From IMG/VR virus record IMGVR_UViG_3300013126_001527, positions 26,896-90,895 of that record: 64,000 bases of DNA; one strand, 5' to 3'. The notes under the pieces were generated by a model. It searched no databases, was not told the origin of the DNA, and worked only from the letters and a program-made list of their open reading frames with translations. This stretch comes from a virus. The position numbers were made by a program, and so were the translations under genes. Of this stretch, positions 24,210 through 60,642 are shown piece by piece. Each line of letters begins with the position of its first letter. Positions within the stretch are counted from its first letter, which is position 1.

Positions 24210-24614
24210 ATGGACAATATTATGTTATTAACGGAATTCTTTGAAACCTCGGAGGGCAACTCGTATGCAAAGCCTACGACAGCGTCGAGCGTTAAAGAAA
24301 CTAAACGCAAAATTACAGCAAAAAATGATCCCTGCTGGAAGGGTTACCACATGGTGGGCACAAAGTCTAAAGATAGCAAAGAAGTGCCTAACTGCGTTTC
24401 GGGAGAAAAAGGGTCAATGAATGAAACAGCCGATTTGAGTCATATAATTCAAGCACGCCAATTAGCACATCAAGCCATGACAGATACTAGTAAGCGTCAT
24501 GAATATTTTGATTTTATGAAACATTTACGTGACAAACACGGTAAAGAATACAGTATAAAAATCCATCAAAATGCTACTAAATTAGACAGCATCAAAGAAA
24601 GTATCAAGGAATAA
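24210..24614 (+). CDS. Small protein with CWKGY motif and targeting-like N-terminus
   Basis: A 134-residue protein. The start at 24210 fits a late transcript from the box at 24186; ATG 24222 (MLLTEFFETSEG) is also possible and would give a peptide resembling the T4 head-targeting sequence with an LTE cleavage site. Residues about 35-60 contain NDPCWKGYHMVGTKSKDSKE followed by VPNCV, a Cys-x(~22)-Cys module that is repeated in the protein at 39537 (CWKGYRKQGTKMKGDTRVNNCV). A helical C-terminus follows (FDFMKHLRDKHGKEYSIKIH). Function unknown. Confidence 0.6.
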   Translation: MDNIMLLTEFFETSEGNSYAKPTTASSVKETKRKITAKNDPCWKGYHMVGTKSKDSKEVPNCVSGEKGSMNETADLSHIIQARQLAHQAMTDTSKRHEYFDFMKHLRDKHGKEYSIKIHQNATKLDSIKESIKE

Positions 24615-27738: not shown

Positions 27739-28188
27739 ATGGTAGACGAAGTATTTGACGACGAAGTGACCACAGTTCCGCAAGAAACTGTACAAATTGA
27801 AGTTCCAGCACCTATAACTACAGCCCCATGGGGATTTCATGCTATAATGGACTGTAATAATGTTGAATTAGACAAAATTCAAAGCGAATCAAATATTAAA
27901 AATTGGCTTAGTGATTTGTTAATTAAAATTGATATGACCCCAATTGGTGATCCAATTGTTACCAAAACTGGTGTAGGTATGCCCGATAAAGAGGGATTTA
28001 CCGCAGTGCAGATTATTGTTACTAGTAACATTATAGCACATTTTATCGACCAAGATCGACACATTTACATTGATGTGTTTAGTTGTAAAGAGTTTAATCC
28101 AACTCTTGTCGAAGAATCAATTAAACAGTTTTTTGGTGCCAACACAGCAATTAAAAAAATATTATTGCCCAGAAACGCGGCTATTTGA
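27739..28188 (+). CDS. SpeD-like (AdoMet decarboxylase fold) protein with altered active site
   Basis: A 149-residue protein. After a 30-residue acidic lead it follows the small prokaryotic AdoMet decarboxylase pattern: APWGFHAIMDC (29-39), EGFTAVQIIVTSN (85-97), and HIYIDVFSCKEFNP (108-121). The would-be pyruvoyl-forming Ser96 and Cys116 are present, but the usual E-S-H around the Ser is T-S-N and H-T-x-P-E is HFIDQ. SpeD-like proteins with changed motifs can act on other amino acids or be inactive, so polyamine synthesis is uncertain. The 3' end overlaps the convergent desaturase gene by 27 bp. Confidence 0.65.
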   Translation: MVDEVFDDEVTTVPQETVQIEVPAPITTAPWGFHAIMDCNNVELDKIQSESNIKNWLSDLLIKIDMTPIGDPIVTKTGVGMPDKEGFTAVQIIVTSNIIAHFIDQDRHIYIDVFSCKEFNPTLVEESIKQFFGANTAIKKILLPRNAAI

Positions 28189-29292
28189 TTTAAAAAATAT
28201 TATTGCAAAATAATATTGAGGATTGACAAACTTAACCCAACTTGGGCCCATAAAAAGGTCTCCCACAGAGTTGGGTATTTTTTTGAATCGTTTGTGATGC
28301 TCATAATGCCAGCTTTGATTAAGAGCTATTGGAAACAACCAAGGGTAATTCCTTTCACCAAATCTAGACAAATACCAATCATGCTGAAAATTTAACACAT
28401 TAACCAAGGTATAAGGTAATAAGAATAAAAATACGACTCCCGATATACCAATGGTCCAGGCTAGTATTATCAAACACAGTATTTTTATCTCTACTAGATA
28501 ATTGGTGGTTTTAGGTTTTCTTATTAGGCTAATATCGTAGTCTTTTAGTCCTGGCACCAATTCTTGCTCAACACGTTTAGTAAATAAGTCTTGTTCAGTT
28601 TTCCAAAGTCGATGATGTGTTTGATGATAACTAACCACCCCATCTTGGTCATGGTGTGTACTAGGCACTAATATCTGAATATATGTTTCTATTAAGAATC
28701 TAACTATTTTATTTTTAGGTATAATGTAACCATGTTCAACGTATTCGTGTCTGATTACATCTGCAGGCATCCACAACAAAAATCCCAAACACAATCCATA
28801 GATAAACAACTGAAGATCAAAAAATGCACAGACTAACAAAAAATAGAATATTAGAGTCTTGTACTCTAGTAAAAAATAAAAATTTTTTAGATTAATTGTA
28901 CTCAGTAACTGATCAACCACACTGTAGTTAAACCGTTTTGCTATAGAAATTTTATGAGTAATTTTTATAAAATCAATATTATTAGTTGGCCATTGGTCAG
29001 CCCCTTGTACCTCAATGCCTGCAGATCGTAAGTTATATTGCAATTTTGCCTCATCTACCAATGTTAGCGATTCCCATGAAAATTTATCAACAGGATTGGA
29101 AATAGATTTAGTTATACTAGTGAGCAGGCTTGTTGGGGTTACTTTGTGAAAAAAATAACTTAATGCTTCACGCAACTCCCATAGTTGACATTCTTCTAAA
29201 GATTTGTTAGTATACGTGTGTTGATTGAACCAGTCTACAAATCGTTCATAGTCCGGTAAATTTTTTTGAATTTCTTGAGTGAATATAGTCAT
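28162..29292 (-). CDS. Membrane fatty-acid desaturase/hydroxylase with long N-terminal extension
   Basis: A 376-residue membrane enzyme. Three histidine boxes expected to hold the di-iron centre are visible: HEYVEH, HQTHH and HYEHH, separated by hydrophobic stretches (FYFLLEYKTLIFYFLLVCAF, IFGLCLGFLLW-like and VVFLFLLPYTLVNVL). The first 120 residues are a soluble extension (YERFVDWFNQHTYTNKSLEE) not usual in the family. The start is taken at ATG 29292; a TTG two codons upstream is possible. A perfect minus-strand TATAAATA ends 7 nt before the ATG. It is inserted antisense to its neighbours. Substrate unknown: lipid acyl chains, fatty alcohol or carotenoid. Confidence 0.8.
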   Translation of the reverse strand: MTIFTQEIQKNLPDYERFVDWFNQHTYTNKSLEECQLWELREALSYFFHKVTPTSLLTSITKSISNPVDKFSWESLTLVDEAKLQYNLRSAGIEVQGADQWPTNNIDFIKITHKISIAKRFNYSVVDQLLSTINLKNFYFLLEYKTLIFYFLLVCAFFDLQLFIYGLCLGFLLWMPADVIRHEYVEHGYIIPKNKIVRFLIETYIQILVPSTHHDQDGVVSYHQTHHRLWKTEQDLFTKRVEQELVPGLKDYDISLIRKPKTTNYLVEIKILCLIILAWTIGISGVVFLFLLPYTLVNVLNFQHDWYLSRFGERNYPWLFPIALNQSWHYEHHKRFKKIPNSVGDLFMGPSWVKFVNPQYYFAIIFFKSNSRVSGQ

Positions 29293-29299
29293 TTCCAAT

Positions 29300-29873: not shown

Positions 29874-30597
29874 ACTATTAGAAGGTGGTAATATTTTTAA
29901 AACAGCAGATGGTCAACCTGCCACTACACGTATTGCTCGAGATAATGTTGTACCCACAGTGCAATGGTTAGAACAACTCACTGGATTAAATCTTGTAGAC
30001 AATATGCTAGGATCAACTAGTCGCAAAGAAACAAGTGGTGACTTAGACCTAGGTGTAGATAGTACTAAAATTTCTAAAGAAGTATTAATACAGCAACTAC
30101 TTCGTCAAGGTATTCCGCAGACAGATATACGTAAAACAGGTGACAGCGTGCATCTAAAAACTCCTATCTTAGGTGATCCAAGTAACGGATATGTACAAAC
30201 TGACTTTATGTTCAGCGACAACCCACAGTTCCAAAGTTTTAGCTATGCTGGCACTGGCGCAGGCGAGTTCAAAGGTGTGCATCGTAACATCTTGCTGGCC
30301 AGCATTGCCAAAGCACTAGACATGAAATGGAGCCCAAAATTTGGTTTGGTCAACCGAGAAACTAACGAAGTAATTAGCAACAATCCTCAAGAAATAGCTA
30401 AAACTTTAGTCAACGGTACTGTGCAGGATTTGGCATCAGTTGAAACTATAGTAAATAAGATAAAGAACCAAGCAAACTACGAACAACTTGTAGCAGACGC
30501 AAGGGAATATTTTGCTCGTGATAATTTAGTATTGCCAGAGTCGGCACCATTACCAGGCACCGGTGCCTGGTTTAGATTGTGGAAGGATCAACTATGA
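29863..30597 (+). CDS. Nucleotidyltransferase-like protein
   Basis: A 244-residue protein. MLGSTSRKETSGDLDLGVD (residues 45-63) gives the G-S ... D-x-D signature of the Pol-beta-type nucleotidyltransferase superfamily, and VQTDFMFSD (near 110) could give the third acidic residue. The remaining sequence has GEFKGVHRNILLASIAKAL. Targets of such enzymes include tRNA, antibiotics and proteins; none can be assigned. Its stop overlaps the next start (ATGA). Confidence 0.65.
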   Translation: MVTKLLEGGNIFKTADGQPATTRIARDNVVPTVQWLEQLTGLNLVDNMLGSTSRKETSGDLDLGVDSTKISKEVLIQQLLRQGIPQTDIRKTGDSVHLKTPILGDPSNGYVQTDFMFSDNPQFQSFSYAGTGAGEFKGVHRNILLASIAKALDMKWSPKFGLVNRETNEVISNNPQEIAKTLVNGTVQDLASVETIVNKIKNQANYEQLVADAREYFARDNLVLPESAPLPGTGAWFRLWKDQL

Positions 30598-31934
30598 GAG
30601 CACGTCAGTTTATATTAGAATACAGCAGAGAAAAGACTGCCACGGTCTTTGGTAATAAACTCGTCGCTGCTGTAAGCAAAGATAAAAGTCATGATACCGC
30701 TATAGGTAAAATACGTGCTTTTATTGATCAAAAGACCAAAGTTGGCAGCGGTATTGAGCCAGAACAGCGTCAACAGATCTTAGATCAGGTCATGGCCATG
30801 TTAGAGTCAGCTGATCCTACCGCTAATAAAGAATATGTACAATGGTTAGCCAAAGTCTACGCCAACGAAGGCGTTATGATGGAAGACCTTGTGAGTAAGA
30901 CTACAGAATGGTTACAAAAGTACGACCTGTACAAAAAGAAAAAGTTCTTTAAAGACAGCGATGCTAAATTGGCCAACATCATGAACTTGTCGTGGCGGGA
31001 CCTATGGGACATCAGTATACGTGCTGACTTTCAAATGCGTGTCCAACAAGCAGAAGAAAAAGCCATGCCCAAGGGCAACGCTGAGCAGGTCTACGAAAAC
31101 GATAAGGTTCGCATTATTATTCCTAAAGATAAAGAAGCTGCCTGCTACTATGGACAGGGTACCACATGGTGTACAGCCAGTACACAAAGTACTAACTATT
31201 TTAACAGCTACAGCAAAGACGGTCCCTTGTATATTCTACTGCCTAAACAGCCCCAGTATGAAGGTGAGAAGTATCAACTACACTTCCCTAGTGGCCAGTT
31301 CATGGATGAGCAGGATCGCAACGTAGATGATATTATAGAACTATTAGACATGCGTTTTGGCAATCTAGTAGACTTCTTCCGTGAGCGTGAACCGCAGATC
31401 AACGATTGGCTGGTGTTTACTCCAGATGAAATACTAGAACCTTTGATCGCTAAGATTAAAACCGCAGTCAACGATCATGTACATGAAAAGGTCAACGAAT
31501 GGGAAGTAGAAGACGACTACTGGTGGGAGTATTTACGTAAACAAGGTTACGTATACCCAGAAGGGCATGAAGAAGAAGGTGGCATTGATTGGGATGCCGT
31601 AGCAGATGCTGACGAAAGTTATACCAGTTGGAACTACGAAGCCAGTGACTACATTAGTAGAATAGTTGGTGCTGTGGATCTATCTCCACAGGAAGTACGC
31701 AATCTAGCAGAGGAAGTAGGTCGTGAATGGGGTGCTGATACCCAGGGCATTGATGACCTAGATAAAATTATGGCCTATGCTATTGAACAGACTAACAACC
31801 GCAACGAGGGTGATGGTGGCGTAGCAGAGTGGATCAATGATCACATCTACATTAAGAAACGTGACGGCCAATGGGATGTCAGCTTGTTGTACACAAACAA
31901 AGACGGCAAGCGTACAGAGTACCCAATACATTAA
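30594..31934 (+). CDS. Unknown protein with GTTWCTA motif and targeting-like N-terminus
   Basis: A 446-residue protein starting at ATG 30594 (MRARQFILEYSREK; the ILE could be a head-protease site). A conserved-looking core near residues 183-230 reads YYGQGTTWCTASTQSTNYFN, then SKDGPLYILL and YQLHFPSGQFMDEQD. The G-T-x-W-C-T-A...Y-F-x-x-Y...G-P-L-Y-x-x motif occurs in several large phage proteins of unknown function. The C-terminal part is acidic with repeated Trp. A perfectly paired start/stop overlap with the upstream gene supports the start. Confidence 0.6.
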   Translation: MRARQFILEYSREKTATVFGNKLVAAVSKDKSHDTAIGKIRAFIDQKTKVGSGIEPEQRQQILDQVMAMLESADPTANKEYVQWLAKVYANEGVMMEDLVSKTTEWLQKYDLYKKKKFFKDSDAKLANIMNLSWRDLWDISIRADFQMRVQQAEEKAMPKGNAEQVYENDKVRIIIPKDKEAACYYGQGTTWCTASTQSTNYFNSYSKDGPLYILLPKQPQYEGEKYQLHFPSGQFMDEQDRNVDDIIELLDMRFGNLVDFFREREPQINDWLVFTPDEILEPLIAKIKTAVNDHVHEKVNEWEVEDDYWWEYLRKQGYVYPEGHEEEGGIDWDAVADADESYTSWNYEASDYISRIVGAVDLSPQEVRNLAEEVGREWGADTQGIDDLDKIMAYAIEQTNNRNEGDGGVAEWINDHIYIKKRDGQWDVSLLYTNKDGKRTEYPIH

Positions 31935-32474: not shown

Positions 32475-33641
32475 ATGAGAGCACGTGATTTTATTAAAGA
32501 ACTAAGACGAAATCCAGAACAAAATGTTCGCGTGTCTGGTTGGGATCAATTTGTTCAAATATACAATCAACACAAACAACAAGGCAACCCCAGCAACTTA
32601 TATATCAGCCTAACTGAATTAGAAAAGTTGGGCATTAATCCATTAAGTGAACACGAAACACCAAATGGTGTTTATGCTTATCCTGCAGACTATGTAATCA
32701 AAACTAAAAGTTTTGAGGACTTGCCCTATGCTGGTGATCAAAAATGGGTAAATGTGTTTACAGTTACTCCAGAAGCTAATATTCTTAAAGTTGATACCGT
32801 GGGTTCAGATGAAGTTAAAGAATACTTAAAACGATTAGTCACTGCATACCCAGAACGAGCAGATGAAATTAAACAATTTGCTAAATCAGCTCCTAAGGAA
32901 GCATTTGCCAACGATGGATGGGATGATATTCCTAATCGCAAAAAACTCAAAAAACTGCCTGGTGCTCAACTATGGTATATAACCTTTGAGTTGAGCGAAT
33001 ATGACTCCAATCTTTGGAACAAACTGTTTAGAGTTATGGGCATTGATGGCGTAGCGGATTCTGGCATGGGCATTATCCATCATATGGAACCTGTTCAAGC
33101 CGTGTTCTTTAATCCTAAGGCAATTAAGATGATTGGCAGATTCCCAAACTCTGCCGCTCCAACAGAAAAGTCTATAACTAACCGTCGCAAAGAAGGGCAA
33201 CAGCAAACTCAGACTAAACGAAATCTTAACTCAATGAGCGAACGAGATCAAATTGAGTGGATGAATAGAAACCACTACCACGAACACTTTAGATATATCA
33301 GAAACCCATCACCTAAAGTCCAAAAAGCAGCTATTAAATTAGACCCAAGAAATATTTTATGGATTAAAAATCCAAGCCCAGAGTTATTAATGTATGCTGT
33401 TAAGAAGGAACCGCATCTATTAGATCATTTCAAAAATCAAACATTTGAATTACAGATGGCTGCTATAGGTAAAGATTGGTCTAACATTGAATACTTAGAT
33501 CATCCTTTGCCGCAGACAGTTCAACAGGTTATGAGCATGATACCTCGCAAAGAGTTAGAACAACTATATCAAGATCAAATTGAATATATTGAAAACGGGT
33601 GGGGAAATCCTCCTTATTCTTGGTTACCTCCTCTTAGATAA
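32475..33641 (+). CDS. Candidate head-targeted protein with ART-PolyVal-like segment
   Basis: A 388-residue protein starting MRARDFIKELRRN (targeting-like peptide with an IKE site). Residues about 20-220 read NGVYAYPADYVIKTK, QLWYITFELSEYDS, GIDGVADSGMGIIHHMEPVQ and AVFFNPKAIKMIG. That DGV...QAVFF-x-P-x-x-I-K ending resembles the end of small ADP-ribosyltransferase-like (ART-PolyVal) domains in mobile elements; the catalytic residues are not certain. The C-terminal part has short helical repeats (RNPSPKVQKAAIKLDPRNIL, KNPSPELLMYAVKKEP). Capsid-borne ADP-ribosylation, as by T4 Alt, is a hypothesis. Confidence 0.5.
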   Translation: MRARDFIKELRRNPEQNVRVSGWDQFVQIYNQHKQQGNPSNLYISLTELEKLGINPLSEHETPNGVYAYPADYVIKTKSFEDLPYAGDQKWVNVFTVTPEANILKVDTVGSDEVKEYLKRLVTAYPERADEIKQFAKSAPKEAFANDGWDDIPNRKKLKKLPGAQLWYITFELSEYDSNLWNKLFRVMGIDGVADSGMGIIHHMEPVQAVFFNPKAIKMIGRFPNSAAPTEKSITNRRKEGQQQTQTKRNLNSMSERDQIEWMNRNHYHEHFRYIRNPSPKVQKAAIKLDPRNILWIKNPSPELLMYAVKKEPHLLDHFKNQTFELQMAAIGKDWSNIEYLDHPLPQTVQQVMSMIPRKELEQLYQDQIEYIENGWGNPPYSWLPPLR

Positions 33642-33650: not shown

Positions 33651-36581
33651 ATGCGATACGAACAAATCAAACCCCTATTAGACGAAGCTGTACTTGACGA
33701 AGTCAAGATGAGCCCTAGTGCTCTACAAAAATTTGCCAACAGTCCAGAAGCAGAAGGTATGCTTATGGGTATAGAATTTGAAATGTGCGTGCCAAATGTT
33801 GCTGTAGATGACGACAGTGGCGACGGCGAATATGACTATGACATGGACGAACGTTGTTACAGCATAGATGATATTATAGAATTCTTCCGTAACGGTGAAA
33901 TGTCAAACTTAGGTTCCAGCAGTGCTCAACGCCTACGCGAAAAGATGTGGGACGAATACCTAGACTGGACTAGTGATAAAATTGCAGACAATCTAGACAC
34001 AGACGAATTGAATGAACGTGTTCGTAATCGTTTACGTGATGACATAGACTGGGAAGATTACGTTGATGATGCTCGTGAAGAACTAGGCGACGAAGTTCCT
34101 GACGATAAAGTAGAAGAACGGGCTAAAGAACTAGCAGAAGAAGCATTAGATAATGAAATGAGTGATGCTAGTAGTCGCAACTACCAATATTACTACGACG
34201 AAATACGCCAAGAGATGGAAGATGAAATGCGTGAAGATGCGGACTACGATCAAGAAGCGTGGTTGCGTGACATTGGCGTAGATTACATGAGCGACGCAGA
34301 ACGTGAATGGAGCTTAGATTGGCCACACTGGAGTTACTATGGTAGCGACGGTGAAATGGATGTAGAAAGTGTAGGTGACGAGTTTGGTCGTAGTATGGGC
34401 TTAGAATACGTAAACACATCAAACAACTACCACGGTGCTCGTCGTGATGGTAAAAACTGGATTGTAGAGCCAGATAGTTCAATTGACGCAGATTCAGGCG
34501 ATGGTGGTTTAGAGTTTGTTAGTCCTCCTATGCCAATCAAAGACGGTTTAGAAATGCTACAAAAAATGTACAAGTGGGCCAAGGATAACGGTTGTTATAC
34601 TAACAAGTCAACTGGCCTACACATGAACATTAGCGTTCCAGATATGACCATTGAAAAACTGGACTATGTTAAACTAGCCCTGTTCATGGGCGACGAACAT
34701 GTGCTTAAACAGTTTGGTCGTCAATATAACAGCTATGCTAAGAGTGCTATGAGTAAGATTAAGGACCGTATTCGTCCAGAAGATGTTCCGCACGTACTAG
34801 CACAAATGAAGCAACACCTAAACAGTCTAGCCAGTAAAACCATACACAGTGGTATTACAGACAAATACACTAGTATCAACACCAAAGACAACTATGTAGA
34901 ATTCCGCGGCCCAGGTGGCGACTACTTGGATATGAATCCATTTGAGGTTACTAACACAGTCCTACGTCTGGCTATGAGCCTGCGTATTGCTACCAATCCA
35001 GAAGCATACAAACAAGAGTATGCTAAGAAACTATACAAATTAGTAGAACAAGACGGTGACTGGACTGACCCCAATAACTCAGTGGCTCTATTCAGTCGTT
35101 ATGCTCTAGGCGAAATTAACAAAGACGAATTAGTCAGTAATGTACGTCAGGCACAGGTAGCACGTAAAGAGAAGAAAGGCGAAGAACTACAGTTCTGGGT
35201 CATGAACAAAGACGGCACGGGCGGCAAGCAGTTAGTGTTTGCTCAAAGTGAAACAGAAGCCATTATCAAAGGTGGCAAGCAGATGGGCATGAACCGTGAG
35301 AAGAGTATTAGCACGCTCAAAGCTGAGGTAAAATCTGCGCCTATTGATTTAGAAGGCATGAGCAAGGAAGAGTACTATCGTCAGGTCAACGATTTACCTA
35401 CATACACATTAGAACAATTTGTCAATGAGATTAAAAAACGAGAACTCAGTACATTAGAAAAAGCTCTAGACACTGTTAAGAATCGTAGCATGAGTGGCGA
35501 CTTAAGTGCTACTAACTACGAGTTCCTACAGGCAGTTATTGAGCGTGAAATTGCTCGTCGCAGTCTACCAGTTGATGACGGTGAGATGACACAGTGGAGA
35601 GTACATATTACTCAAGGACCACACGCAGGTGTATCTACAATTATCAACGCACCAACACCACGTAATGCCAAGGTAGCGGCACAGGCTATATTCCGTAGTC
35701 AATTAAATGACGCATTTATAGATTACGACTATTTAGAAGCAAGAGAATATACTTTAGCAAGTAGATTACAAGTAGGTACACCAGAACCAGCAAATGCTCA
35801 AGAAATATACGACAGTTTACCTAACACTTATAAAGCATGGTTAGATGGGTTAGAAGCAGGCGAATCCAGTGTAATACAAACTGTAATAGACAGTGTTGCC
35901 AACGATACAGGGGCAAATGCTCAGGCATTAAACATAGAACAACGTGATTTAATTATCAGTAGAGCGCAGGCAGAACTACGTCGTCGTGGGCAAGCAACTC
36001 AAAGTAGCGAAGAAGAAATGACCCGCCCATGGCACGTATGGTTAGCAAATATACAGGATCATACAGATGATCAACTGCGTAATGCTCGACATGTCATGGC
36101 AGTTGGCCGAAATGAACCAGGTGCTCGTGGTGCTAGACTAACTGATCGTCAACGTCAGGCTATTGTAGATGAGATTGATGATGAGTTCCGCCGCAGATTA
36201 GCTAGAAGTATTGAACGCGGTGAACAAGCTCGTGCGGCACAGCAAGGTGATATTATAGCACCAGGACTAGGCGAGGTGGACCCGTTGGCGGCACAACAAG
36301 CAGAATTAATCAACCGTGATGATCCTGTTACATCAAACGATCCTGAAGCTGATAGTCCATTAGAGGTGCCAGGACAAGGTACGCAAGAGTTTCAGATTGT
36401 AAATCCACACACAGGATCTATTGTAGCAGTAATACGTCAGGCTACCCTAGATCACGCTGTAAGTAAAGCACGTCAATGGGAACAAGACCTAGGCTTATCA
36501 GCAGGTGACTTAGAAGTTCGTCAAATTGGCGAAACTAACGAAAGTATTAATCAATTACGCAAATTAGCAGGCATTAAATAA
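33651..36581 (+). CDS. Large amidoligase-like protein
   Basis: A 976-residue protein. Motifs of the putative amidoligase (COOH-NH2 ligase) family appear in order: MGIEFEMCV near 39-47, GGLEFVSPPMPIKDG near 285-299, STGLHMNISVPD near 319-330 and YVEFRGPGGDYLDMN near 415-429. Such enzymes form amide bonds using ATP. A very acidic insert separates the first and second motifs (residues 50-220). The C-terminal 450 residues hold other domains (QWRVHITQGPHAGVSTIINA) and end INQLRKLAGIK, like the end of the 10721 protein. The N-terminus contains LLDEA, a possible head-protease site. Confidence 0.6.
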   Translation: MRYEQIKPLLDEAVLDEVKMSPSALQKFANSPEAEGMLMGIEFEMCVPNVAVDDDSGDGEYDYDMDERCYSIDDIIEFFRNGEMSNLGSSSAQRLREKMWDEYLDWTSDKIADNLDTDELNERVRNRLRDDIDWEDYVDDAREELGDEVPDDKVEERAKELAEEALDNEMSDASSRNYQYYYDEIRQEMEDEMREDADYDQEAWLRDIGVDYMSDAEREWSLDWPHWSYYGSDGEMDVESVGDEFGRSMGLEYVNTSNNYHGARRDGKNWIVEPDSSIDADSGDGGLEFVSPPMPIKDGLEMLQKMYKWAKDNGCYTNKSTGLHMNISVPDMTIEKLDYVKLALFMGDEHVLKQFGRQYNSYAKSAMSKIKDRIRPEDVPHVLAQMKQHLNSLASKTIHSGITDKYTSINTKDNYVEFRGPGGDYLDMNPFEVTNTVLRLAMSLRIATNPEAYKQEYAKKLYKLVEQDGDWTDPNNSVALFSRYALGEINKDELVSNVRQAQVARKEKKGEELQFWVMNKDGTGGKQLVFAQSETEAIIKGGKQMGMNREKSISTLKAEVKSAPIDLEGMSKEEYYRQVNDLPTYTLEQFVNEIKKRELSTLEKALDTVKNRSMSGDLSATNYEFLQAVIEREIARRSLPVDDGEMTQWRVHITQGPHAGVSTIINAPTPRNAKVAAQAIFRSQLNDAFIDYDYLEAREYTLASRLQVGTPEPANAQEIYDSLPNTYKAWLDGLEAGESSVIQTVIDSVANDTGANAQALNIEQRDLIISRAQAELRRRGQATQSSEEEMTRPWHVWLANIQDHTDDQLRNARHVMAVGRNEPGARGARLTDRQRQAIVDEIDDEFRRRLARSIERGEQARAAQQGDIIAPGLGEVDPLAAQQAELINRDDPVTSNDPEADSPLEVPGQGTQEFQIVNPHTGSIVAVIRQATLDHAVSKARQWEQDLGLSAGDLEVRQIGETNESINQLRKLAGIK

Positions 36582-38337: not shown

Positions 38338-39540
38338 ATGAACTTATACGAAATGTTTGAACCTCAGAAAGAATTGACCTTAGTAGATGCGCTACGTGAC
38401 TTCTTGCCATTAGCTATGTTAGAACTAAATATCACTACATTGCCAAAAATAACATTTCAAAAAGATATACAATCTATAGAGCATCCAACCTTTGGACGTT
38501 TTACCAATGAAGGCAATTTAATCTATGTAGATATTGAAAATCGCCATCCCAACGATATATTACGCACGTTGGCGCATGAACTAACACACTTTGCACAGAA
38601 TGAACGTGGCGAATTAGATCAGCATAGTGGGGACACTGGTAGTAATGCTGAAAATGAAGCTAATGCAGTAGCTGGTGTAATCATGCGCAATTTTAATGCA
38701 GAATATCCGCAATATTTAAAATTAGCTCCAGTAACATTTAATAATCAAATAAACGAAAAACGTAAGCGCAAACAAAAACGTCAAACTGGTTACTACGGAT
38801 ACTATTGGGGCGGAGTTAACTACGCCGACCAATCAGGTGATGGCGGTAGCGATGGTGGCGAGAGTGTACAAGAAGGCATAGGTAATTCTGCCCTAGTGGG
38901 CGCATTAGCTGCTGCATTATCAATGTCACCAAATGCTGCCAATGCAGAGTCATCCGACGCAGCAAATGCCTTGCGTATCTATAGAACTATCCATCAGTAT
39001 AAGAATTACGATGATGCAGCATTTAAAGCAGAAGCACAACAAGAACTAATGAATATTCTACGCACGTTACAAGGGCACCCAAACCAAAGTCAAATTTTGT
39101 CCATTGTTAAAAAAATGGCTGACTCAGAAGAAACAACTACCGAGTTACCCCCATTAACTAACGAGCCTGTTAACGAAAAGTGGAGTGAAAAATACAAACG
39201 CAGTATTGACTGCTCCAATCCCAAAGGATTTAGTCAACGTGCGCACTGTCAAGGTCGTAAAAAGTCCAACGAAGGTACTTGTGAAACTCATAAGAGTCCT
39301 AGCGGACGCATGACTAATATGTGCCCAGACGATGACGACTATGAGATAAACTATGGCAAGCAAGCCAATGAAAATTTTGCCGACGGTAAAAAGCCAGGAC
39401 GTAAAGGACTTGCTAAACGCAGTGGTGTGAATTGTACACAGTCAGTGACGAAATTGAGAAGCATCGCTAAGAATTCCAGCGGTGAAAAGCAACGTATGGC
39501 ACACTGGTGTGCAAATATGAAATCAGGAAAAGCAAAATGA
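38338..39540 (+). CDS. Zinc metallopeptidase-like protein with Cys-rich tail
   Basis: A 400-residue protein. Residues 40-110 form a minimal gluzincin-like domain with HELTHFAQNE (HExxH, near 80) and a downstream ENEANAVAG acidic stretch that may give the third zinc ligand. The middle (residues 180-205) is Ala-rich and hydrophobic (ALVGALAAALSMSPNAANAE). The C-terminus carries KRSIDCSNPKGFSQRAHCQG, a Cys-Asn-Pro module, and a basic end. The related Cys-Asn-Pro module in the next protein links the two. Possibly a virion-associated protease; substrates unknown. Confidence 0.65.
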   Translation: MNLYEMFEPQKELTLVDALRDFLPLAMLELNITTLPKITFQKDIQSIEHPTFGRFTNEGNLIYVDIENRHPNDILRTLAHELTHFAQNERGELDQHSGDTGSNAENEANAVAGVIMRNFNAEYPQYLKLAPVTFNNQINEKRKRKQKRQTGYYGYYWGGVNYADQSGDGGSDGGESVQEGIGNSALVGALAAALSMSPNAANAESSDAANALRIYRTIHQYKNYDDAAFKAEAQQELMNILRTLQGHPNQSQILSIVKKMADSEETTTELPPLTNEPVNEKWSEKYKRSIDCSNPKGFSQRAHCQGRKKSNEGTCETHKSPSGRMTNMCPDDDDYEINYGKQANENFADGKKPGRKGLAKRSGVNCTQSVTKLRSIAKNSSGEKQRMAHWCANMKSGKAK

Positions 39541-40184
39541 AAGCTAGTGATTTTTTAAATGAAGCAAAACAACGATTAGATGCCAAGTGTTGGAAGGGCT
39601 ATCGCAAACAAGGCACCAAGATGAAAGGTGACACTCGCGTCAACAACTGTGTTAAAGTCAACGAAGAAATTGATCCAGCAGACGTAGGTGAATACGACCG
39701 CGAAGGTGAAATGGCTATCGATCAGTTGGAAACTGCTGCAGAAGCTGCTAACGAACTACGCAGTATCTTAGATGCTGATGAAAACTTACCCGAATGGGTA
39801 CAAAGTAAAATTACCAAAGCACTTGATTACTTAGACACTAGCCGTGACTACATGAAATCCAAAGGCAATAACACAGATGAAGAAACTTATGAAGGTGACG
39901 AGTTCTACGAAGCTTACGGTATTATGTGCGAAAGCCTAGAAGAAGCAGAATACCGTGGACGCAAAGTACCCTTAGGTAAACCTATGCGCGGCGATGTTAA
40001 AAAATTCAAAGTCTATGTTAAAGATCCTAAGACTGGAAATATCAAAAAAGTAAACTTTGGCGACCCTAACATGCGTATTAAGAAATCAAATCCTAAACGC
40101 AGAAAATCATTCCGTGCTCGTCATAACTGCGCTAACCCTGGTCCACGCACTAAAGCACGTTATTGGTCATGCCGTAAGTGGTAA
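39537..40184 (+). CDS. CWKGY-motif protein with basic C-terminal Cys module
   Basis: A 215-residue protein starting at ATG 39537 (ATGA overlap). Order: targeting-like peptide MKASDFLNEAKQ with an LNE site, CWKGYRKQGTKMKGDTRVNN then CV (shared with the 24210 protein), an acidic helical middle, and a very basic C-terminus (GRKVPLGKPMRGDVKKFKVY ... RARHNCANPGPRTKARYWSC). The C-terminal module looks familiar from conserved phage proteins, and its basic, Cys-paired nature suits a DNA- or head-associated protein. Function unknown. Confidence 0.65.
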   Translation: MKASDFLNEAKQRLDAKCWKGYRKQGTKMKGDTRVNNCVKVNEEIDPADVGEYDREGEMAIDQLETAAEAANELRSILDADENLPEWVQSKITKALDYLDTSRDYMKSKGNNTDEETYEGDEFYEAYGIMCESLEEAEYRGRKVPLGKPMRGDVKKFKVYVKDPKTGNIKKVNFGDPNMRIKKSNPKRRKSFRARHNCANPGPRTKARYWSCRKW

Positions 40185-40187: not shown

Positions 40188-40721
40188 ATGCGAGCCCAAG
40201 ACTTTTTAACAGAATCTAAAGAAAAACTTAAGCTAATAGATTTGCCTTATAGCCGAGCAGCTCTTGCGCCTGTAATGAGCAAAAGTACTCTAGACAATCA
40301 CTATGGTAAATTAGCTAAAGGTTATGTAGATCGATACAACAAAGGTGAAGGTGACAAGACTTTCAATGCTGCTGGTGCATACCTACACAACTTATTCTTT
40401 CCACAACTACGTGCGCCGCGTTCCAATAATAAACCAACCGGAGCAATTAAGAATTTAATAGATCGTAAGTTTGGTTCTTACGATGAATTCAAAGAAGAGA
40501 TGGTCAAAAAAGCTATGAAACTGCAAGGCAGTCATTGGATCTATCTAAGTAAAACTGGCGCTATCAAAACTATACCCAATCACCAAAAGCGTACAGATAT
40601 AGTGCTGTTGATTGACTGGTGGGAACACGCTTGGACCATTGACTATGGTGCAGATAAAGCCAAATACTTAAAAAATATCTGGCGCATAATTAATTGGGAT
40701 ATCGTAAATCAAAGGCTATGA
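40188..40721 (+). CDS. Fe/Mn superoxide dismutase with head-targeting-like N-terminus
   Basis: A 177-residue enzyme that would convert superoxide to oxygen and hydrogen peroxide. All four metal ligands of Fe/Mn SOD are in place: His38 (LDNHYGK), His67 (YLHNLFF), Asp143 and His147 (DWWEHAW), plus Tyr46 (GYV). FGSYDEFKEEMVKKAMKLQG and YLKNIWRIINWDIVNQRL match the C-terminal domain. Unusually it starts MRAQDFLTESKEKLK, a peptide shared with neighbours that resembles the T4 capsid-targeting sequence with an LTE protease site. It ends in ATGA with the next gene. Confidence 0.85.
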   Translation: MRAQDFLTESKEKLKLIDLPYSRAALAPVMSKSTLDNHYGKLAKGYVDRYNKGEGDKTFNAAGAYLHNLFFPQLRAPRSNNKPTGAIKNLIDRKFGSYDEFKEEMVKKAMKLQGSHWIYLSKTGAIKTIPNHQKRTDIVLLIDWWEHAWTIDYGADKAKYLKNIWRIINWDIVNQRL

Positions 40722-41137
40722 GCAACTGGGAAGTTTATGTTCGCGAAAGCTACGAGCTCATTAAAGAAGCCGAGCATAAACTTACTGTCAATCTTGATCA
40801 CAACGTTGAAGCCTACATAGTACACCTGTTTGCACACTTCATCGACAAACCTAAAATAAACACCGAGCCTTTAGGTATTAAACTACTGTCTAGTAATCAA
40901 TTACCCGTAAAACAACGTAAAACTGTGTTAAAAGAAGTAGGCGACGAGTGTCTATTAATCAATGCTATGGAATGGGGTAAAAGTCGTTGGCCTAGCAGTA
41001 GCTATTACCAACAACTCGGACAAACCGCATATCAGAGTAGGGCATGGATAACACAGCCTGTAGAAGAAGTATTTGATGATCTTGCAGTCGATTTTGATAC
41101 TGCTACAAAGATATTACGAACCTGCAGAATTTCTTAA
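40718..41137 (+). CDS. Hypothetical protein
   Basis: A 139-residue soluble protein starting at ATG 40718, overlapping the sod stop. It has an internal AEHKLTVNLDHNVEAYIVHL helix region and a YYQQLGQTAYQSRAW segment. Its 3' end overlaps the convergent desaturase gene by 24 bp. No family recognised. Confidence 0.55.
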   Translation: MSNWEVYVRESYELIKEAEHKLTVNLDHNVEAYIVHLFAHFIDKPKINTEPLGIKLLSSNQLPVKQRKTVLKEVGDECLLINAMEWGKSRWPSSSYYQQLGQTAYQSRAWITQPVEEVFDDLAVDFDTATKILRTCRIS

Positions 41138-41860
41138 TCGCATCAGTCCTAATTTTATTAAAATCTTACTGTAAACCCATCCTAGATCGATTTCAAACCA
41201 TCTACGTCTGAAATTAGGATTGCTAGTATCGTTATGATGATTCGCATGTAACTCTTCCCCTGCACTAAACAACCCCCACGGAAATAAAATTCTACTGCGA
41301 TCGCTTCCTAGATTACCAGCGTATTTAAATCCAACTTTGTGAAAAGAATAGTTGCCTATTAGTAGAAACATGTAAGCTAGTAAAAAACAATTGAATGCAC
41401 CAATAACAAATCCCCAACCACCAAACAGATATGTTAGCAACACCCAAAAAAGCACTTGGCCTAACCAAGGATATCGATTATATACTTTCCTTTGTATCGT
41501 ATCGGTGGAACTAACAATATCTGGAGCATACTGTTCAATTTCTTTCATCGAAATGTAATTTGCACGTCCAGGACTATTATGTTTAAAATCAAATAATTTA
41601 GCTAAGGAATAGTAATGCGGGCTATGAGGATCTTGATAGGTATCACTGTGCTTGTGATGTTTTCGGTGCTTTGCAGCATAGTGTTTTTGCCAATTTGGCC
41701 AGCTTAATCCAACAATAAACCATAGTATAAATCTAAATATATGTTCCAAAGGTTTAGAAAATTCAAAATAGTGATGCCCTATGCCTCTATGTACATATAT
41801 GCTAAATGCTGCGCTGGCTATATGTACTAATAAAAGATAAAAAATTATTGCAGATGTCAT
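41114..41860 (-). CDS. Delta-9-type fatty-acid desaturase
   Basis: A 248-residue membrane enzyme. His boxes: HRGIGHH, HRKHHKH and HANHH, the order and spacing of acyl-lipid/acyl-CoA desaturases, with hydrophobic spans at residues 4-20, 42-55 and 130-165 or so. It would introduce a double bond into membrane acyl chains using di-iron chemistry and a host electron donor. Start ATG 41860 is preferred because a minus-strand AATAAATA ends 5 nt before it; an upstream start at 41902 would add 14 residues not typical of the family. Inserted antisense, like the desaturase at 28162. Confidence 0.85.
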   Translation of the reverse strand: MTSAIIFYLLLVHIASAAFSIYVHRGIGHHYFEFSKPLEHIFRFILWFIVGLSWPNWQKHYAAKHRKHHKHSDTYQDPHSPHYYSLAKLFDFKHNSPGRANYISMKEIEQYAPDIVSSTDTIQRKVYNRYPWLGQVLFWVLLTYLFGGWGFVIGAFNCFLLAYMFLLIGNYSFHKVGFKYAGNLGSDRSRILFPWGLFSAGEELHANHHNDTSNPNFRRRWFEIDLGWVYSKILIKLGLMRLRNSAGS

Positions 41861-41865
41861 CAAAA

Positions 41866-41873
41866 TATTTATT
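41866..41873 (-). promoter_or_regulatory. Late-promoter-like box AATAAATA (minus strand), 5 nt before an ATG
   Basis: Ends exactly 5 nt before the desaturase ATG at 41860. Confidence 0.55.
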
Positions 41874-41878
41874 AGATG

Positions 41879-41907
41879 TTGACTCTGCCGAGTAAATATC
41901 ATATACT
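41879..41907 (+). promoter_or_regulatory. Sigma70-type promoter
   Basis: TTGACT (41879-41884), 17-bp spacer, TATACT (41902-41907); it faces the DsbA-like and polymerase genes and is back-to-back with the minus-strand late box. Confidence 0.7.
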
Positions 41908-47209: not shown

Positions 47210-47911
47210 ATGTTTTATGTATATGCTTACTTGAGAACTAAAGACTTAACCCCGTACTACATTGGAAAGGGTAAAGATGACAGAGCGTGGCAAAAATCAC
47301 ATTCTGTTATTGTTCCTAAGGACCTTAGTAGAATTGTTATGTTAGAATGTAATTTATCAGAGGTGGGGGCCTTTGCTATTGAACGTAGAATGATTCGTTG
47401 GTATGGGCGCAAAGATTTAGGTACAGGTATATTACATAATAGAACAGATGGCGGCGATGGTGTAGCAGGTATTATTCCGTGGAACAAGGATATACAGATT
47501 GGATCATTTTTAACTGACGCAGGACGAAAGAAAATTAGTAAAGCAAACAAAGGCATTAAAAAAGATCACGGTGCTAAAATTTCTGCCGCGTTAAAGGGTA
47601 AAACTAAATCCGAAGAACATAAACAGAAGTTAAGTGATGCTGGTAAAGGAAAGGCTCCGTGGAATAAAGGTCTTACTAAAGATGATAATGAACAAATACA
47701 AAAATATTCAGAGTCACTCAAAGGTCGTTGCTTTACTGCCGAGCATCGTGCTAAACTAAGTGAAGCTCACAAAGGCAGAGCAAATACAGACGAACAGAAG
47801 GCAAAAATAAGTGCGAAGTTAAAAGGAAGAGTTATGTCCAAGGAGACTAAACGAAAAATGTCAGAAGCAAGAAAAAAATTATGGGAAGAAAAGAAAAATG
47901 GAAAGAGATAA
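47210..47911 (+). CDS. GIY-YIG homing endonuclease with NUMOD3 repeats
   Basis: A 233-residue free-standing homing endonuclease of the T4 Seg/I-TevI type. The catalytic domain is at the N-terminus: VYAYLRTKD and [13 protein letters not shown] form the GIY-YIG (here VYA...YIG) motif, with a family Glu near [11 protein letters not shown]. Then come NUMOD3-type DNA-binding repeats ([75 protein letters not shown]). Such genes move into intron-less alleles. Late promoter and RBS are its own. It overlaps the following dpdA-like start by 14 bp. Confidence 0.88.
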
Positions 47912-49472
47912 TTTAACAGCCAAGCAGTTAGGGTCTGATGGGCAAAGCCAATACGCCGTTTTTCTTCCAGCACTTAGTGGCTTCTATGCTACCTATGTAG
48001 GTAAGCAACGTTTTCCAGATGCTAACGGCAACACCTATGTTGAAAGCTCACGTGTACCTACATTGTTTGAACATGGTATAGAAGGTCTCAACTGGCTCAA
48101 TCCAGATGCTGGCTACTTTCAATATCACTGGAGTTTGTACTCAGCAGGTCACGCAGAACTAGACGTAAACAAACACAGTCCAAAAGAAGATATGGTACGT
48201 AATCGCAATCGTAGTACTAGTTTTATCCTAGGCGATTCGGGTGGTTTCCAAATTGGTAAAGGTGTTTGGGAAGGAGATTGGAAAAATCCTAACTGTCCTA
48301 AAGCACAAAAGAAGCGCGAACTAGTTCTTACTTGGATGGACGCATATATGGACTATGGTATGTGTTTAGATATCCCTGCTTGGGTAGCTCGTAGTCCAGC
48401 AGGTCGTGCAGCTACAGGTATTAACACCTATGATGAAGCTGTACAGGGCACTTACATTAACAATGATTGGTTCGTTAACAACCGCACAGGTGCTTGCAAA
48501 TTCTTAAATGTTCTACAAGGTGAGAATCATGCGGATGCTGAAGATTGGTATCAACGCATGAAGAAATACTGTGATCCTAAGCAGTACCCAGGTCGTCATT
48601 TTAATGGTTGGGCCATGGGCGGACAGAATATGTGTGATGTACACTTGGTACTTAAACGTCTGGTGGCTATTCGCTTTGATGGATTACTACAAGAAGGTAT
48701 ACATGATTGGATGCACTTTTTGGGTACTAGTAAACTAGAGTGGGCTGTGTTATTAACAGACATTCAACGTGCTGTTAGAAAATATGTCAACCCAGCATTT
48801 ACCATATCGTTTGACTGTGCAAGTCCATTTCTAGCCTCAGCTAACGGACAGATATACATTCAAACAGAAATTGAAGATCGTAGCAAATGGGTATATCGTA
48901 TGGTTCCTAGCGTCGATGATAAGAAGTATGCACTAGACACACGTAAGTTTAGTGACGCTGTCTTACAAGACAAGGTGTTTGAAAACTTCACAGATAGTCC
49001 TATCAGCAATCGTATCAACATCAATGATGTCTGCTATTATGCCCCAGGTGACCTAAATAAGATTGGCAAAGAGGGTAAGACTAGTTGGGATTCATTTAGT
49101 TATGCTATCCAAATGGGCCATAATGTTTGGAGTCATATTAACTCTGTGCAGGAAGCTAATCGTCAGTATGATCAAGGTGTTGTACCTAAAATGTTAGTAC
49201 AAGAAACATTTGATCGTGTGTACTTTAAAGATGTAGTTGATCAAATCTTTGCTGCAACAACACGTGCGGCTGCAGAACAAATCATCGAAGATAACAGTAA
49301 GTTTTGGATGACGATTATCGGTACACGTGGTGCGACAGGTAAGAAAACTGTTAATGCTAGCACTATGTTTAACAGTTTATTTGAAACAGAAGAACCAGAA
49401 GAGCACCACATCGACGATAGTGGCTTTGACGAAACTAACTTAGATAACTTAGAAGAAGGACTAGGAGAGTAA
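47898..49472 (+). CDS. dpdA: DpdA/TGT-like DNA guanine transglycosylase
   Basis: A 524-residue TIM-barrel enzyme of the tRNA-guanine transglycosylase superfamily. The first catalytic region is [13 protein letters not shown] near 110-122 (as TGT SDSGGFQ), the nucleophile region ISFDCASPF near 303-311 (as TGT FDCVxPTR), and [10 protein letters not shown] near 236-245 the substrate loop. A TGT-like end [19 protein letters not shown] is also visible. The Cys-x-Cys zinc site of tRNA enzymes is not evident. Phage DpdA enzymes put 7-deazaguanines into DNA to evade restriction. FolE, QueE and QueD in this window supply the precursor, supporting that role. Confidence 0.78.
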
Positions 49473-52797: not shown

Positions 52798-53493
52798 ATG
52801 ACAAAATATACAGTAAGTGAATCAATTCGTAATAATCTACGAGCAAATAACAAACGTTTCTGGGCAGGCGACAACATCTCAGAATACATTACAGAAGAGC
52901 AGAAACAACTATTAATCGACGAAGCAACACTAGCGTTTGAAGGTGTGCTGGATACACTATTAATTGATCGCGAAACAGATCCTAACAGTTACGGCACGGC
53001 TAGACGTTTAGCTAAGATGTACTTTAACGAAATTATGGCAGGTAGATATGATCCAGCACCTGATGCTACAGCTTTCCCAAATGATAGTGAAGATAGATAC
53101 GAAGGTATGCTTGTGGTTCGTAGCGAGTTACGTAGTATGTGCTCACACCACCATCAACCTGTCAGCGGAGTCGCTTATATTGGAATTATTGCCGCTAACA
53201 AACTTATTGGCCTATCTAAATACACTCGGATTGCTCAGTGGTGTGCTCGCCGTGGTACACTACAAGAAGAGCTTGCGAATGATATCACGCGAGAGATTAG
53301 TCGAGCGACTGGCAGCAATAACGTAGCAGTATATATTCAAGCAACGCACGGTTGCTGTGAGAATCGTGGCATTATGGCACATTCAAGTTTAACTCAAACT
53401 ACAGTATTAACAGGTGCATTTAAAACTGACCCCAATACTAAGAAAGAGTTCTTTGACAACATTAAACTACAACAGGAGTTTGCTCCAAGATGA
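52798..53493 (+). CDS. folE: GTP cyclohydrolase I
   Basis: A 231-residue FolE type IA enzyme that converts GTP to dihydroneopterin triphosphate, the first step to folate and to 7-deazaguanines. Zinc ligands are seen as RSMCSHHHQPVSG (Cys and His near 114-117) and ATHGCCENRGI (Cys near 186). KLIGLSKYTRIAQWCARRGTLQE is the substrate-pocket signature. GGAGTAG precedes the ATG and a sigma70 promoter stands upstream. In phage 7-deazaguanine systems FolE, QueD and QueE feed QueC and DpdA; all but QueC are present in this window. Confidence 0.93.
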   Translation: MTKYTVSESIRNNLRANNKRFWAGDNISEYITEEQKQLLIDEATLAFEGVLDTLLIDRETDPNSYGTARRLAKMYFNEIMAGRYDPAPDATAFPNDSEDRYEGMLVVRSELRSMCSHHHQPVSGVAYIGIIAANKLIGLSKYTRIAQWCARRGTLQEELANDITREISRATGSNNVAVYIQATHGCCENRGIMAHSSLTQTTVLTGAFKTDPNTKKEFFDNIKLQQEFAPR

Positions 53494-54671: not shown

Positions 54672-54765
54672 GATTGACACAAAGACTACTAGTGTGTTAC
54701 AATACTTAGATGGGTATGAAACTACAGACTATCTTGAAAATCAATATAACAGGGCTTATCAATGA
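54610..54765 (+). CDS. Possible small gene between the PRTase and queE, GTG start
   Basis: A 51-residue frame from GTG 54610 (AAAGG 9 bp upstream) ends at TGA 54763-54765, exactly overlapping the queE ATG as ATGA, the pattern seen throughout the genome. The product would read MQKKLTKQNETFGSSTLGNV, then QYLDGYETTDYLENQYNRAY. It overlaps the last 62 bp of the PRTase gene. Amino acid composition looks coding, but no other support exists. Confidence 0.4.
   Translation: MQKKLTKQNETFGSSTLGNVKIDTKTTSVLQYLDGYETTDYLENQYNRAYQ
54674..54703 (+). promoter_or_regulatory. Sigma70-type promoter for queE
   Basis: TTGACA (54674-54679), 18-bp spacer, TACAAT (54698-54703). Confidence 0.65.
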
Positions 54766-55631
54766 AATTAAAAGTTAGTGAAATATTTTATTCAGCACAA
54801 GGTGAGGGTCGTTTTGTTGGCGTACCGAGTGTATTCTTGCGTACATTTGGCTGCAATTTTACGTGCAGCGGTTTTGGTATGCCTAGAGGTACAATTAGCA
54901 CTGAAGCAGACGAAGTTGCTAAAACTGTTACACTATACAAAACATACGAAGACCTACCATTAGTCAACACAGGGTGCGATAGCTATGCGTCATGGCATCC
55001 TAAGTTTAAAAGTTTAAGCCCAACCTATGACACATCTGAAGTTATTAGTAAGATGTTGGCCTTGACCCCAAATAATCGTTGGGCGCAGGACAATGGCAAT
55101 GATGTACACTTGGTTATCACAGGTGGCGAGCCATTGTTAGGTTGGCAAAAAGTATACCCTGAGATGTTAGAAGCAATTGAAATGCGTGACCTAAAGAACA
55201 TTACATTTGAAACTAACGGTACTCAAGAACTTAGCGAGGACTTTAGACAATACTTAGATCAGTGGCAGTATGGTGACTCAAGTGGTGGCGAACGTGAAAT
55301 TACATTTAGTGTAAGTGCCAAACTAAGTCCAAGTGGAGAGAAGTGGGAAGATGCTATCAAACCAGAGATTGTAACAAGCTATCAAGAGTTTGGTACTACA
55401 TATCTTAAGTTTGTAGTTGAGCGTCCAGAAGACTTTGAAGAAGTTGAAGCGGCGGTATTTCAATATCGCATAGCTGGGTTTACTGGAGCAGTGTACATCA
55501 TGCCAGTGGGTGGGGTTGTTAGCGTTTACGATGGCAATAAATTTAATGTAGCTGATGAAGCTATGCGTCGTGGCTATTATTACAGTCCACGTCTACATGT
55601 AGACTTATGGGGTAATTCGTGGGGCAAATGA
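54762..55631 (+). CDS. queE: 7-carboxy-7-deazaguanine synthase, QueE, with stretched cluster motif
   Basis: A 289-residue radical AdoMet enzyme that makes the 7-deazaguanine ring from 6-carboxy-tetrahydropterin. SAQGEGRFVGVPSVFLR (residues 11-27) is the QueE start and LVITGGEPLL near 125 the AdoMet-binding GGE motif. The [4Fe-4S] ligands are unusual: Cys31 and Cys35 are normal (GCNFTC), but the third is probably Cys72 (TGCDSYASW), giving C-x3-C-x36-C instead of C-x3-C-x2-C. Variants of the motif are known in other QueE groups. The start is coupled (ATGA) to a possible small gene. Confidence 0.9.
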   Translation: MKLKVSEIFYSAQGEGRFVGVPSVFLRTFGCNFTCSGFGMPRGTISTEADEVAKTVTLYKTYEDLPLVNTGCDSYASWHPKFKSLSPTYDTSEVISKMLALTPNNRWAQDNGNDVHLVITGGEPLLGWQKVYPEMLEAIEMRDLKNITFETNGTQELSEDFRQYLDQWQYGDSSGGEREITFSVSAKLSPSGEKWEDAIKPEIVTSYQEFGTTYLKFVVERPEDFEEVEAAVFQYRIAGFTGAVYIMPVGGVVSVYDGNKFNVADEAMRRGYYYSPRLHVDLWGNSWGK

Positions 55632-57104: not shown

Positions 57105-57566
57105 ATGGGATTATTTGATAAAATCACAGGAAAAGCACGTCGAACTGAAGAAGCACGATTAAAGGCTGTAGCAGAAGCAGAAGCTATTGCTAAAAAAGAA
57201 CTACAGGCCAAAAAACGTGCCGAAGCAAAAGCTAAAAAGGATGCCATTAAAGCGGCCGAAGCCGATAGCCCCAAGGCACAGGCAACTGCTAAAGGTGAAC
57301 CGTGGGTGTCAATTTTGAACATGGAATTAAATCCTGAAGACCCAGGACAAGGTGCCTTTGAGTTGGATTGGAACGATAAATTTGTAGCTAATTTAGTTCG
57401 CGCAGGCTATCAAGGTAAAACTGATGCTGATATTGTAGACAACTGGTTTCAAACCATCTGTCGAAATGTAGCATTGGAAACTTACGAGCAATACCAAGCA
57501 GATCCTGAACAGCGTAGAAATAACAATCGTCGAGATTTGGGCGACGGAAGAACGGAGATAAGTTAA
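57105..57566 (+). CDS. Conserved phage protein with Lys/Ala helix
   Basis: A 153-residue protein starting at ATG 57105 after AAGGAA. Residues 10-65 are a Lys/Ala/Glu helix (EAIAKKELQAKKRAEAKAKK); residues 72-145 form a compact domain (WVSILNMELNPEDPGQGAFE, NLVRAGYQGKTDADIVDNWF, TICRNVALETYEQY) that looks familiar from T4-like phages of unknown function. Confidence 0.6.
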   Translation: MGLFDKITGKARRTEEARLKAVAEAEAIAKKELQAKKRAEAKAKKDAIKAAEADSPKAQATAKGEPWVSILNMELNPEDPGQGAFELDWNDKFVANLVRAGYQGKTDADIVDNWFQTICRNVALETYEQYQADPEQRRNNNRRDLGDGRTEIS

Positions 57567-57793
57567 TGTCTAAGGAACAAAAAATTAAAGAAATAATTGC
57601 TGCCAGCATTGATAATATTACTTCTGGTGACATTAAAAACGAACAAAGATTGAGCGAACTGGGTGCAGATAGTTTAACTGCTATTGAAATTATTGTAGGG
57701 CTCGAACATGAATATGATGTTGAAGTCCCAGATGATTTTGACCCTAATAGTACTGTTCAAACACTAATAGATTTTATTAATAATAATTCTTGA
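57566..57793 (+). CDS. acpP: Acyl carrier protein
   Basis: A 75-residue four-helix carrier protein. The phosphopantetheine attachment Ser lies in LGADSLTAIEI (DSL, near Ser36). The overall length and acidic composition (IVGLEHEYDVEVPDDFDPNS) match AcpP. It starts in a TAATG overlap with the previous gene. Apo-ACP would need a host phosphopantetheinyl transferase. With three desaturases in the same genome it suggests a lipid-directed programme, although it could also serve another acyl or amino-acyl transfer. Confidence 0.85.
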   Translation: MSKEQKIKEIIAASIDNITSGDIKNEQRLSELGADSLTAIEIIVGLEHEYDVEVPDDFDPNSTVQTLIDFINNNS

Positions 57794-60078: not shown

Positions 60079-60642
60079 ATGAGTTGGATTATTGATAAAA
60101 CATTTGAATTTTGTTATGGACATCGTGTTTGGACACAGATGCTACATGGCGAATACGCAGACGACCTAAAGTGTGCTTGCCGTCACCTACATGGACATGA
60201 AGGCAAAGTACAGGTTTACTTAACTAACAGCACGGACTCAAACAAACTAGATACTACAGGTATGGTAACTGACTTCCGTCATTTAGAATGGTTAAAGAAA
60301 TGGATTAACAAATATATTGACCATCAGTTTGTCATTGATCGCAACGATCCACTATACGATCGATTAGTGGGAAATGACACCCCGTTAGTACCAGTACCAG
60401 TTCCGGGTACAGACTACATCGCAGGGTGGCATATTGATCCAACTTACTATGCGACATTAGATGGCCACGAGTATGAAATGTTTGAAGGGTTCATGGTTGT
60501 GGACTTTGTTCCTACTAGTGAGAATCTAAGTGCTTGGTTGGCTAAATTAGTTGATGTGAAGATGGAGCCATTGGGTGTTAAGGTACATCATCTTGATTGG
60601 TGGGAAACTCCTAAATCACGTAGCGTGTACTACAATGATTAA
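60079..60642 (+). CDS. queD: 6-carboxy-tetrahydropterin synthase, QueD
   Basis: A 187-residue T-fold enzyme that converts dihydroneopterin triphosphate to 6-carboxy-tetrahydropterin, the substrate of QueE. Zinc histidines are seen in FCYGHRVW (near 12-19) and CRHLHGHEGKVQVYL (near 34-48), with the catalytic Cys in KCACRHLHGH. TGMVTDFRHLEWLKKWINKY is the conserved second helix and PTSENLSAWLAKL the C-terminal signature. It is longer than the usual 120 residues because of an insert near residues 100-145. Its promoter is host-like. Confidence 0.92.
   Translation: MSWIIDKTFEFCYGHRVWTQMLHGEYADDLKCACRHLHGHEGKVQVYLTNSTDSNKLDTTGMVTDFRHLEWLKKWINKYIDHQFVIDRNDPLYDRLVGNDTPLVPVPVPGTDYIAGWHIDPTYYATLDGHEYEMFEGFMVVDFVPTSENLSAWLAKLVDVKMEPLGVKVHHLDWWETPKSRSVYYND

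Follow-up and report, generated by a model that had tools for sequence, protein, structure and literature searches.

Why should the superoxide dismutase (SOD) of a phage begin with a peptide that is missing from the bacterial enzymes to which it is compared? The question is raised by a gene in a 64,000-nucleotide stretch of DNA (the window) taken from the IMG/VR virus record IMGVR_UViG_3300013126_001527, which is incomplete at 90,895 bases and is called G000 in our genome-wide tests. The gene, located at 40188-40721 on the plus strand, runs from ATG to TGA and encodes an Fe/Mn SOD of 177 amino acids, identified by Pfam and structure matches. We propose that its N-terminus is likely a head-targeting tag, judging from sequence comparisons. 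This tag closely resembles the cleavable label by which T4 loads proteins into its head, and the SOD is thus probably present in the virus particle.

The phage enzyme and its bacterial counterparts

Pfam assigned residues 83-176 (40434-40715, plus strand) to Sod_Fe_C (2.3e-24; 85.8 bits, cut-off 20.9) and residues 15-52 (40230-40343, plus strand) to the alpha-hairpin domain Sod_Fe_N (5.1e-11; 43.3 bits, cut-off 27), the hairpin being shortened. The AlphaFold2 model has a mean pLDDT of 93 and matches SODs in the PDB with a TM score of 0.88 by query length (E 3e-15), the cambialistic SOD of P. gingivalis (1qnn, TM 0.88) being the top fold match. All four metal ligands expected from the original prediction are present on the plus strand and were placed by alignment with phage and solved SODs: His38 (40299-40301), His67 (40386-40388), Asp143 (40614-40616), and His147 (40626-40628). 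They do not vary across 41 phage SODs and line up with the ligands of solved SODs in HMMER. MAFFT offsets His67 by one column, which mimics a loss of this ligand; since HMMER places the residue correctly, we did not take the shift as a loss. Tyr46 (equivalent to Tyr34), Trp117, Trp145, and Glu146 are likewise invariant throughout a deep phage clade. Given the invariance of these residues and of the ligands, catalysis is apparently under selection, and the phage SOD is probably an active enzyme.

Phage SODs had been thought uncommon, which proved wrong for this phage group, as we found 225 loci in IMG/VR. In a tree, the phage SODs formed a single clade separate from 29 gammaproteobacterial SODs with support of 100/100; other bacterial classes entered the comparison through solved structures. 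When 84,980 genomes of bacteria and archaea were scanned for two conserved motifs, a single relative (L139) was returned; it is situated at the end of an apparently chimeric contig from a metagenome-assembled genome and was therefore not counted as a bacterial member of the clade. MW462191 and several other SOD matches from phage collections were also set aside, as they seem to be bacterial genes or contamination. The phage SOD has the fold, the four ligands, Tyr34, the tryptophans, and Glu159 in common with bacterial and archaeal Fe/Mn SODs, but differs from them by the added tag and the shorter helical hairpin. His30 and Tyr163 form an outer-sphere pair across the dimer, which is usual for Fe/Mn SODs but does not define them. 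In 12 of 12 phage SODs His30 is replaced by Leu and position 163 is not Tyr, whereas His and Tyr occupy these positions in 29 of 29 bacterial SODs, and the active-site Gln of the bacterial enzymes gives way to a Gly63/His132 arrangement.

The N-terminal tag and the head proteins of T4

The original prediction described an N-terminus that replaces the usual short SOD start and carries an LTE protease site, and both features were borne out. The protein starts with MRAQDFLTE/SKE (a slash marks the known or predicted cut), about 11 residues more than the usual bacterial N-terminus. The alignment with bacterial SODs that had been suggested as a check placed 18 residues of this N-terminus (MRAQDFLTESKE) ahead of the LPY core, compared to about 7 in bacterial SODs, and the extension was missing from all 28 readable starts in our gammaproteobacterial sample. 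Residues 1-9, MRAQDFLTE (40188-40214, plus strand), are the proposed capsid targeting propeptide, with a predicted cut at E9/S10 (40214/40215). They were delimited by the conserved site, low pLDDT, and absence from bacterial SODs.

Conservation in this region is concentrated on the putative cleavage site. When the window SOD was aligned with 40 others, 53-84% identical to it, column 9 was Glu in 39 of the 41 sequences and column 7 was Leu, Ile, or Val in the same number, counts that are not independent since the proteins share ancestry. Positions 3, 4, and 6 are highly variable, and the lengths on either side of the site vary as well, as illustrated by the tags MRELIDLTE, MRDIIDLLE, MRDLLTIIE, MKVNDFLTE, MHSIRNTLTLLE, and MDTLPHLRQTLDLLE in relatives. 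The retention of Glu9 amid drifting neighbors lifts LTE beyond a chance match to a T4-type prohead protease site. Furthermore, residues 1-9 are exactly those with a pLDDT below 50, and no other stretch of the model is; the predicted cut therefore borders the folded domain, and the N-terminal site looks like a protease site and not like a part of the domain. In a second genomic setting, found in another group of phages with tail genes and an Fe-S carrier-like gene nearby, the SOD retains the tag and its neighbors are untagged. The SOD homolog of Vibrio phage 2.275.O lacks an N-terminal tag, though this genome encodes an S77 protease. The same homolog (L085:2995-3564) carries a C-terminal extension with MLDE/SVNIRHLINFISK, which by analogy to T4 Alt might perhaps be a C-terminal propeptide.

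The closest parallels to the tag are found in T4. The internal proteins IPII and IPIII begin with MKTYQEFIAE/A and share with the SOD the cut motif and the pattern M-[K/R]-x-x-...-[E/D]-F-[L/I]-x-E. Their capsid targeting sequence has 10 residues, compared to 9 in the SOD tag, and the cargo here would be an SOD whose packaging we infer. In T4, the first 10 residues of IPIII are enough for packaging, and foreign proteins provided with this sequence are packaged and delivered (PMC9026906; also PMC10229621); residues 4 and 7 serve targeting, and residues 8 and 10 serve cutting (PMC9026906). Similar sites are found in the shell proteins gp23 and gp24, whereas the SOD would be cargo. A 65-residue propeptide is removed from gp23 at FLTE/A, identical from P4 to P1 to FLTE/S of the SOD, and gp24 is cut at ELLRE/S. 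When a profile built from the SOD tags only was run on T4, ipIII, ipII, and gp24, all substrates of gp21, were among the top 7 proteins; the chance of at least 3 of the 4 known gp21 substrates ranking there is 8e-5.

Tagged neighbors and the prohead protease

IPII, IPIII, and Alt of T4 combine one tag with unrelated protein bodies, and a similar arrangement is seen around the SOD gene, with a gp21-type protease encoded in related phages. Directly upstream on the plus strand, a gene at 39537-40184 encodes a protein with the same tag (MKASDFLNE/AKQ) and a CWKGY..NCV motif. Tag-like starts on the same strand were also found in an amidoligase-domain protein (33651-36581; MRYEQIKPLLDE/AV) and in two ORFs at 32475-33641 (MRARDFIKE/LRR) and 30594-31934 (MRARQFILE/YSR), and a weaker one in a cytidyltransferase-like protein (19179-20201; MFLQQLFE/AID). 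The gene 3' of the SOD (40718-41137) starts with MSNWEVYVRE/SYEL, with VKE/S in relatives, and may be tagged too, despite a start other than M[RK]. A cysteine motif, CWKGY...G.K...NCV, is common to several of the tag-like proteins (39537-40184, 24210-24614, and L004:6808-7563). In window relatives the SOD gene is part of a series of tagged genes, as at locus L004, where the SOD and five adjacent genes are all tagged, in the order MRARDFLIE, MRANEFIIE, MKSNEFLSE, MRELITLIE, MRATEFLTE (SOD), and MRARDFILE; no mutual similarity was detected among these proteins after removal of the tag. In the window-like group, 32 of 80 SOD neighbors at 11 loci match a strict tag rule, a figure that describes the group and is not an independent test, because the loci are related.

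How specific is this signal? A tag profile with fixed start, at a score of 6, matched 4 of 110, 4 of 147, 5 of 430, and 4 of 201 N-termini in G000, G001, G005, and G015, respectively, whereas each genome had 0-1 internal Met windows that reached this score (p 6e-4 to 2e-3), and the SOD itself is among the four matches in G000, G001, and G015. The loose motif [LIVMF]xE within the first 16 residues was not enriched over all N-termini, and its counts were abandoned as a measure since it occurs too often by chance. A position-free version of the profile gave a weak, non-significant result in G000 and in phage PA5oct. Given these null results, we assign the signal to the specific tag together with its position; the motif by itself does not account for it.

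A prohead protease of the matching type is encoded by several of the relatives. Peptidase_S77 and Gp23 occur together on three SOD-bearing contigs (G005, G011, and G015), PA5oct likewise encodes a gp21-type (S77) protease and gp23, and the incomplete 90.9-kb window record gave no match to the gp21 family or S77. In the gp23 proteins, Leu-x-Glu sites directly precede the mature domain: LSE/S in G005, LKE/N in G015, LAE/S in G011, and LVE/N in PA5oct. In addition, G005 (C1:209020-210673), G009, and G010 have small ORFs of 136-157 amino acids, at a distance of a few kilobases to the SOD, that weakly resemble parts of Gp23.

PA5oct (Arenbergviridae) provides a link to mass spectrometry. Its SOD, EST35_0261, annotated as a hypothetical protein, is 44% identical to the window SOD over 93% of the query and has an IAE site at residue 13 (start MNDSIKKYISIAE/AAS), in a tag whose sequence is unlike that of the window SOD. 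The record note on this protein reads ESI-MS/MS. The same note is attached to 93 PA5oct proteins, among them the portal, sheath, and baseplate and all those annotated as "structural protein", and from this selection we read it as particle proteomics. However, ribonucleotide reductase, thymidylate synthase, and ligase bear it too, so that for the SOD it may reflect co-purification; as evidence of an SOD in the virion it lends modest support. The loose motif was not enriched among the MS-detected PA5oct proteins (14/93 versus 34/136), and the papers covered on PA5oct, MIJ3, and Callisto say nothing of an SOD in the virion.

The window encodes further enzymes. One phage record holds three or more genes for fatty acid desaturases (PF00487, 1e-10 to 3e-19), at 41114-41902 on the minus strand, L083:6440-7189, and L083:11793-12536. 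Two more histidine-box proteins have no Pfam match (28162-29298 on the minus strand and 62510-63292), and an acyl carrier protein-like gene (57566-57793; PF00550, 1.8e-11) is present in the same genome as desaturases. Genes for GTP cyclohydrolase I and PTPS/QueD were found together with QueE-like and TGT-like ORFs, the latter two recognized by eye (52798-53493, 54762-55631, 60079-60642, and 47898-49472); a 7-deazaguanine pathway is a possible reading of this set.

The proposed head cargo and its alternatives

The proposal that the peptide targets the SOD to the head is well backed by the conserved site, the tag on unrelated neighbors, the retrieval of T4 substrates, the protease in relatives, and the PA5oct mass-spectrometry note, whereas the broad motif tests gave it no support. 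We envisage that late in infection MRAQDFLTE would steer the SOD into the core of the prohead, as the capsid targeting sequence does for IPII and IPIII, where a gp21-type protease would cleave after Glu9 (LTE/S) and leave a mature SOD of 168 residues in the head with the DNA. The mature enzyme would most likely be ejected with the genome and, in the initial minutes, would clear superoxide ahead of phage gene expression. Packaging and cleavage of the SOD, its ejection, and its role in protection are all steps that we infer, ejection and protection from superoxide being plausible. For the reading as a whole, a head-cargo SOD of a T4-like phage that is targeted by its tag, cut by gp21, ejected with the genome, and active against superoxide, we estimate a probability of about 0.7.

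The SOD could instead be an ordinary intracellular auxiliary enzyme that protects the infected cell, its extension being an uncut feature of the lineage with another role, such as stability, translation, or contact with phage proteins. In putative Microcystis viruses, Fe/Mn SOD has been counted among the auxiliary metabolic genes (PMC12542629), some relatives have the SOD beside an ErpA/IscA-like gene, and clearly non-structural enzymes of PA5oct were detected by mass spectrometry just as the SOD homolog was. We nevertheless consider this unlikely, as it leaves unexplained why Glu at P1 and Leu, Ile, or Val at P3 are the conserved residues of the tag, why the tag recurs on unrelated neighbors, and why its profile retrieves substrates of T4 gp21. 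As for the gene arrangement itself, an A-type iron-sulfur carrier-like gene of the ErpA/IscA kind, recognized by eye, lies directly 3' of the SOD at L012 and L033, and the group with such a gene also includes L013, L016, L020, L050, L060, and L073.

Two further scenarios accept packaging and depart from our reading in what follows it. The SOD might stay in the head or exit passively and guard the DNA or the particle outside the cell, for instance in sunlit water. The packaging evidence fits this equally, since the tag speaks for targeting into the head and not for ejection, and although many T4 internal proteins and Alt are ejected, ejection is a separate property. Yet comparable T4 cargo goes into the cell, a head filled with DNA would hardly admit superoxide, and an SOD moreover makes peroxide; we thus doubt the benefit and regard this scenario as quite improbable. 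Even harder to credit is a tagged SOD that serves as mere filler of the prohead core with vestigial enzyme activity. The replacement of His30 and Tyr163, invariant in the sampled bacterial SODs, in every phage SOD checked would fit such a role, but the constancy of the four ligands, Tyr46, Trp117, Trp145, and Glu146 over a deep phage clade would not.

A packaged SOD had been predicted to be novel. Giant eukaryotic viruses are known to package SOD in their virions, including the Cu,Zn SOD of Megavirus (PMC9405923). The Megavirus enzyme would share with the phage SOD its place in the virion, but belongs to the unrelated Cu,Zn family and to a virus of a eukaryotic host. This precedent restricts the novelty to the phage and Fe/Mn case, which would be new; the literature we covered, largely open-access, contained no report of a virion SOD or a capsid-targeted SOD for phages. 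To our knowledge, no gp21-type tag is known from the packaged SODs of giant viruses.

It is tempting to speculate, though tentatively and at somewhat less than even odds, that uncultured T4-like phages, a large group of them, share a nine-residue label that works as a module and takes a whole set of enzymes into the head. This set would comprise SOD, perhaps the amidoligase, the cytidyltransferase, a ParB-like protein, and others, some encoded by consecutive genes, and would reach the cell at infection as a ready-made antioxidant and takeover kit. If the modular label is real, the injected proteins of unseen phages would be readable from sequence. If the head-cargo reading of the SOD is true, the tag offers a sequence-only route to the probable head cargo of uncultured T4-like phages, and many genes of unknown function become candidates for injected proteins that can be tested. 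A working antioxidant enzyme carried in the head could then deal with superoxide while no phage gene has yet been read, and this would point to oxidative stress as an obstacle during the initial minutes of infection.
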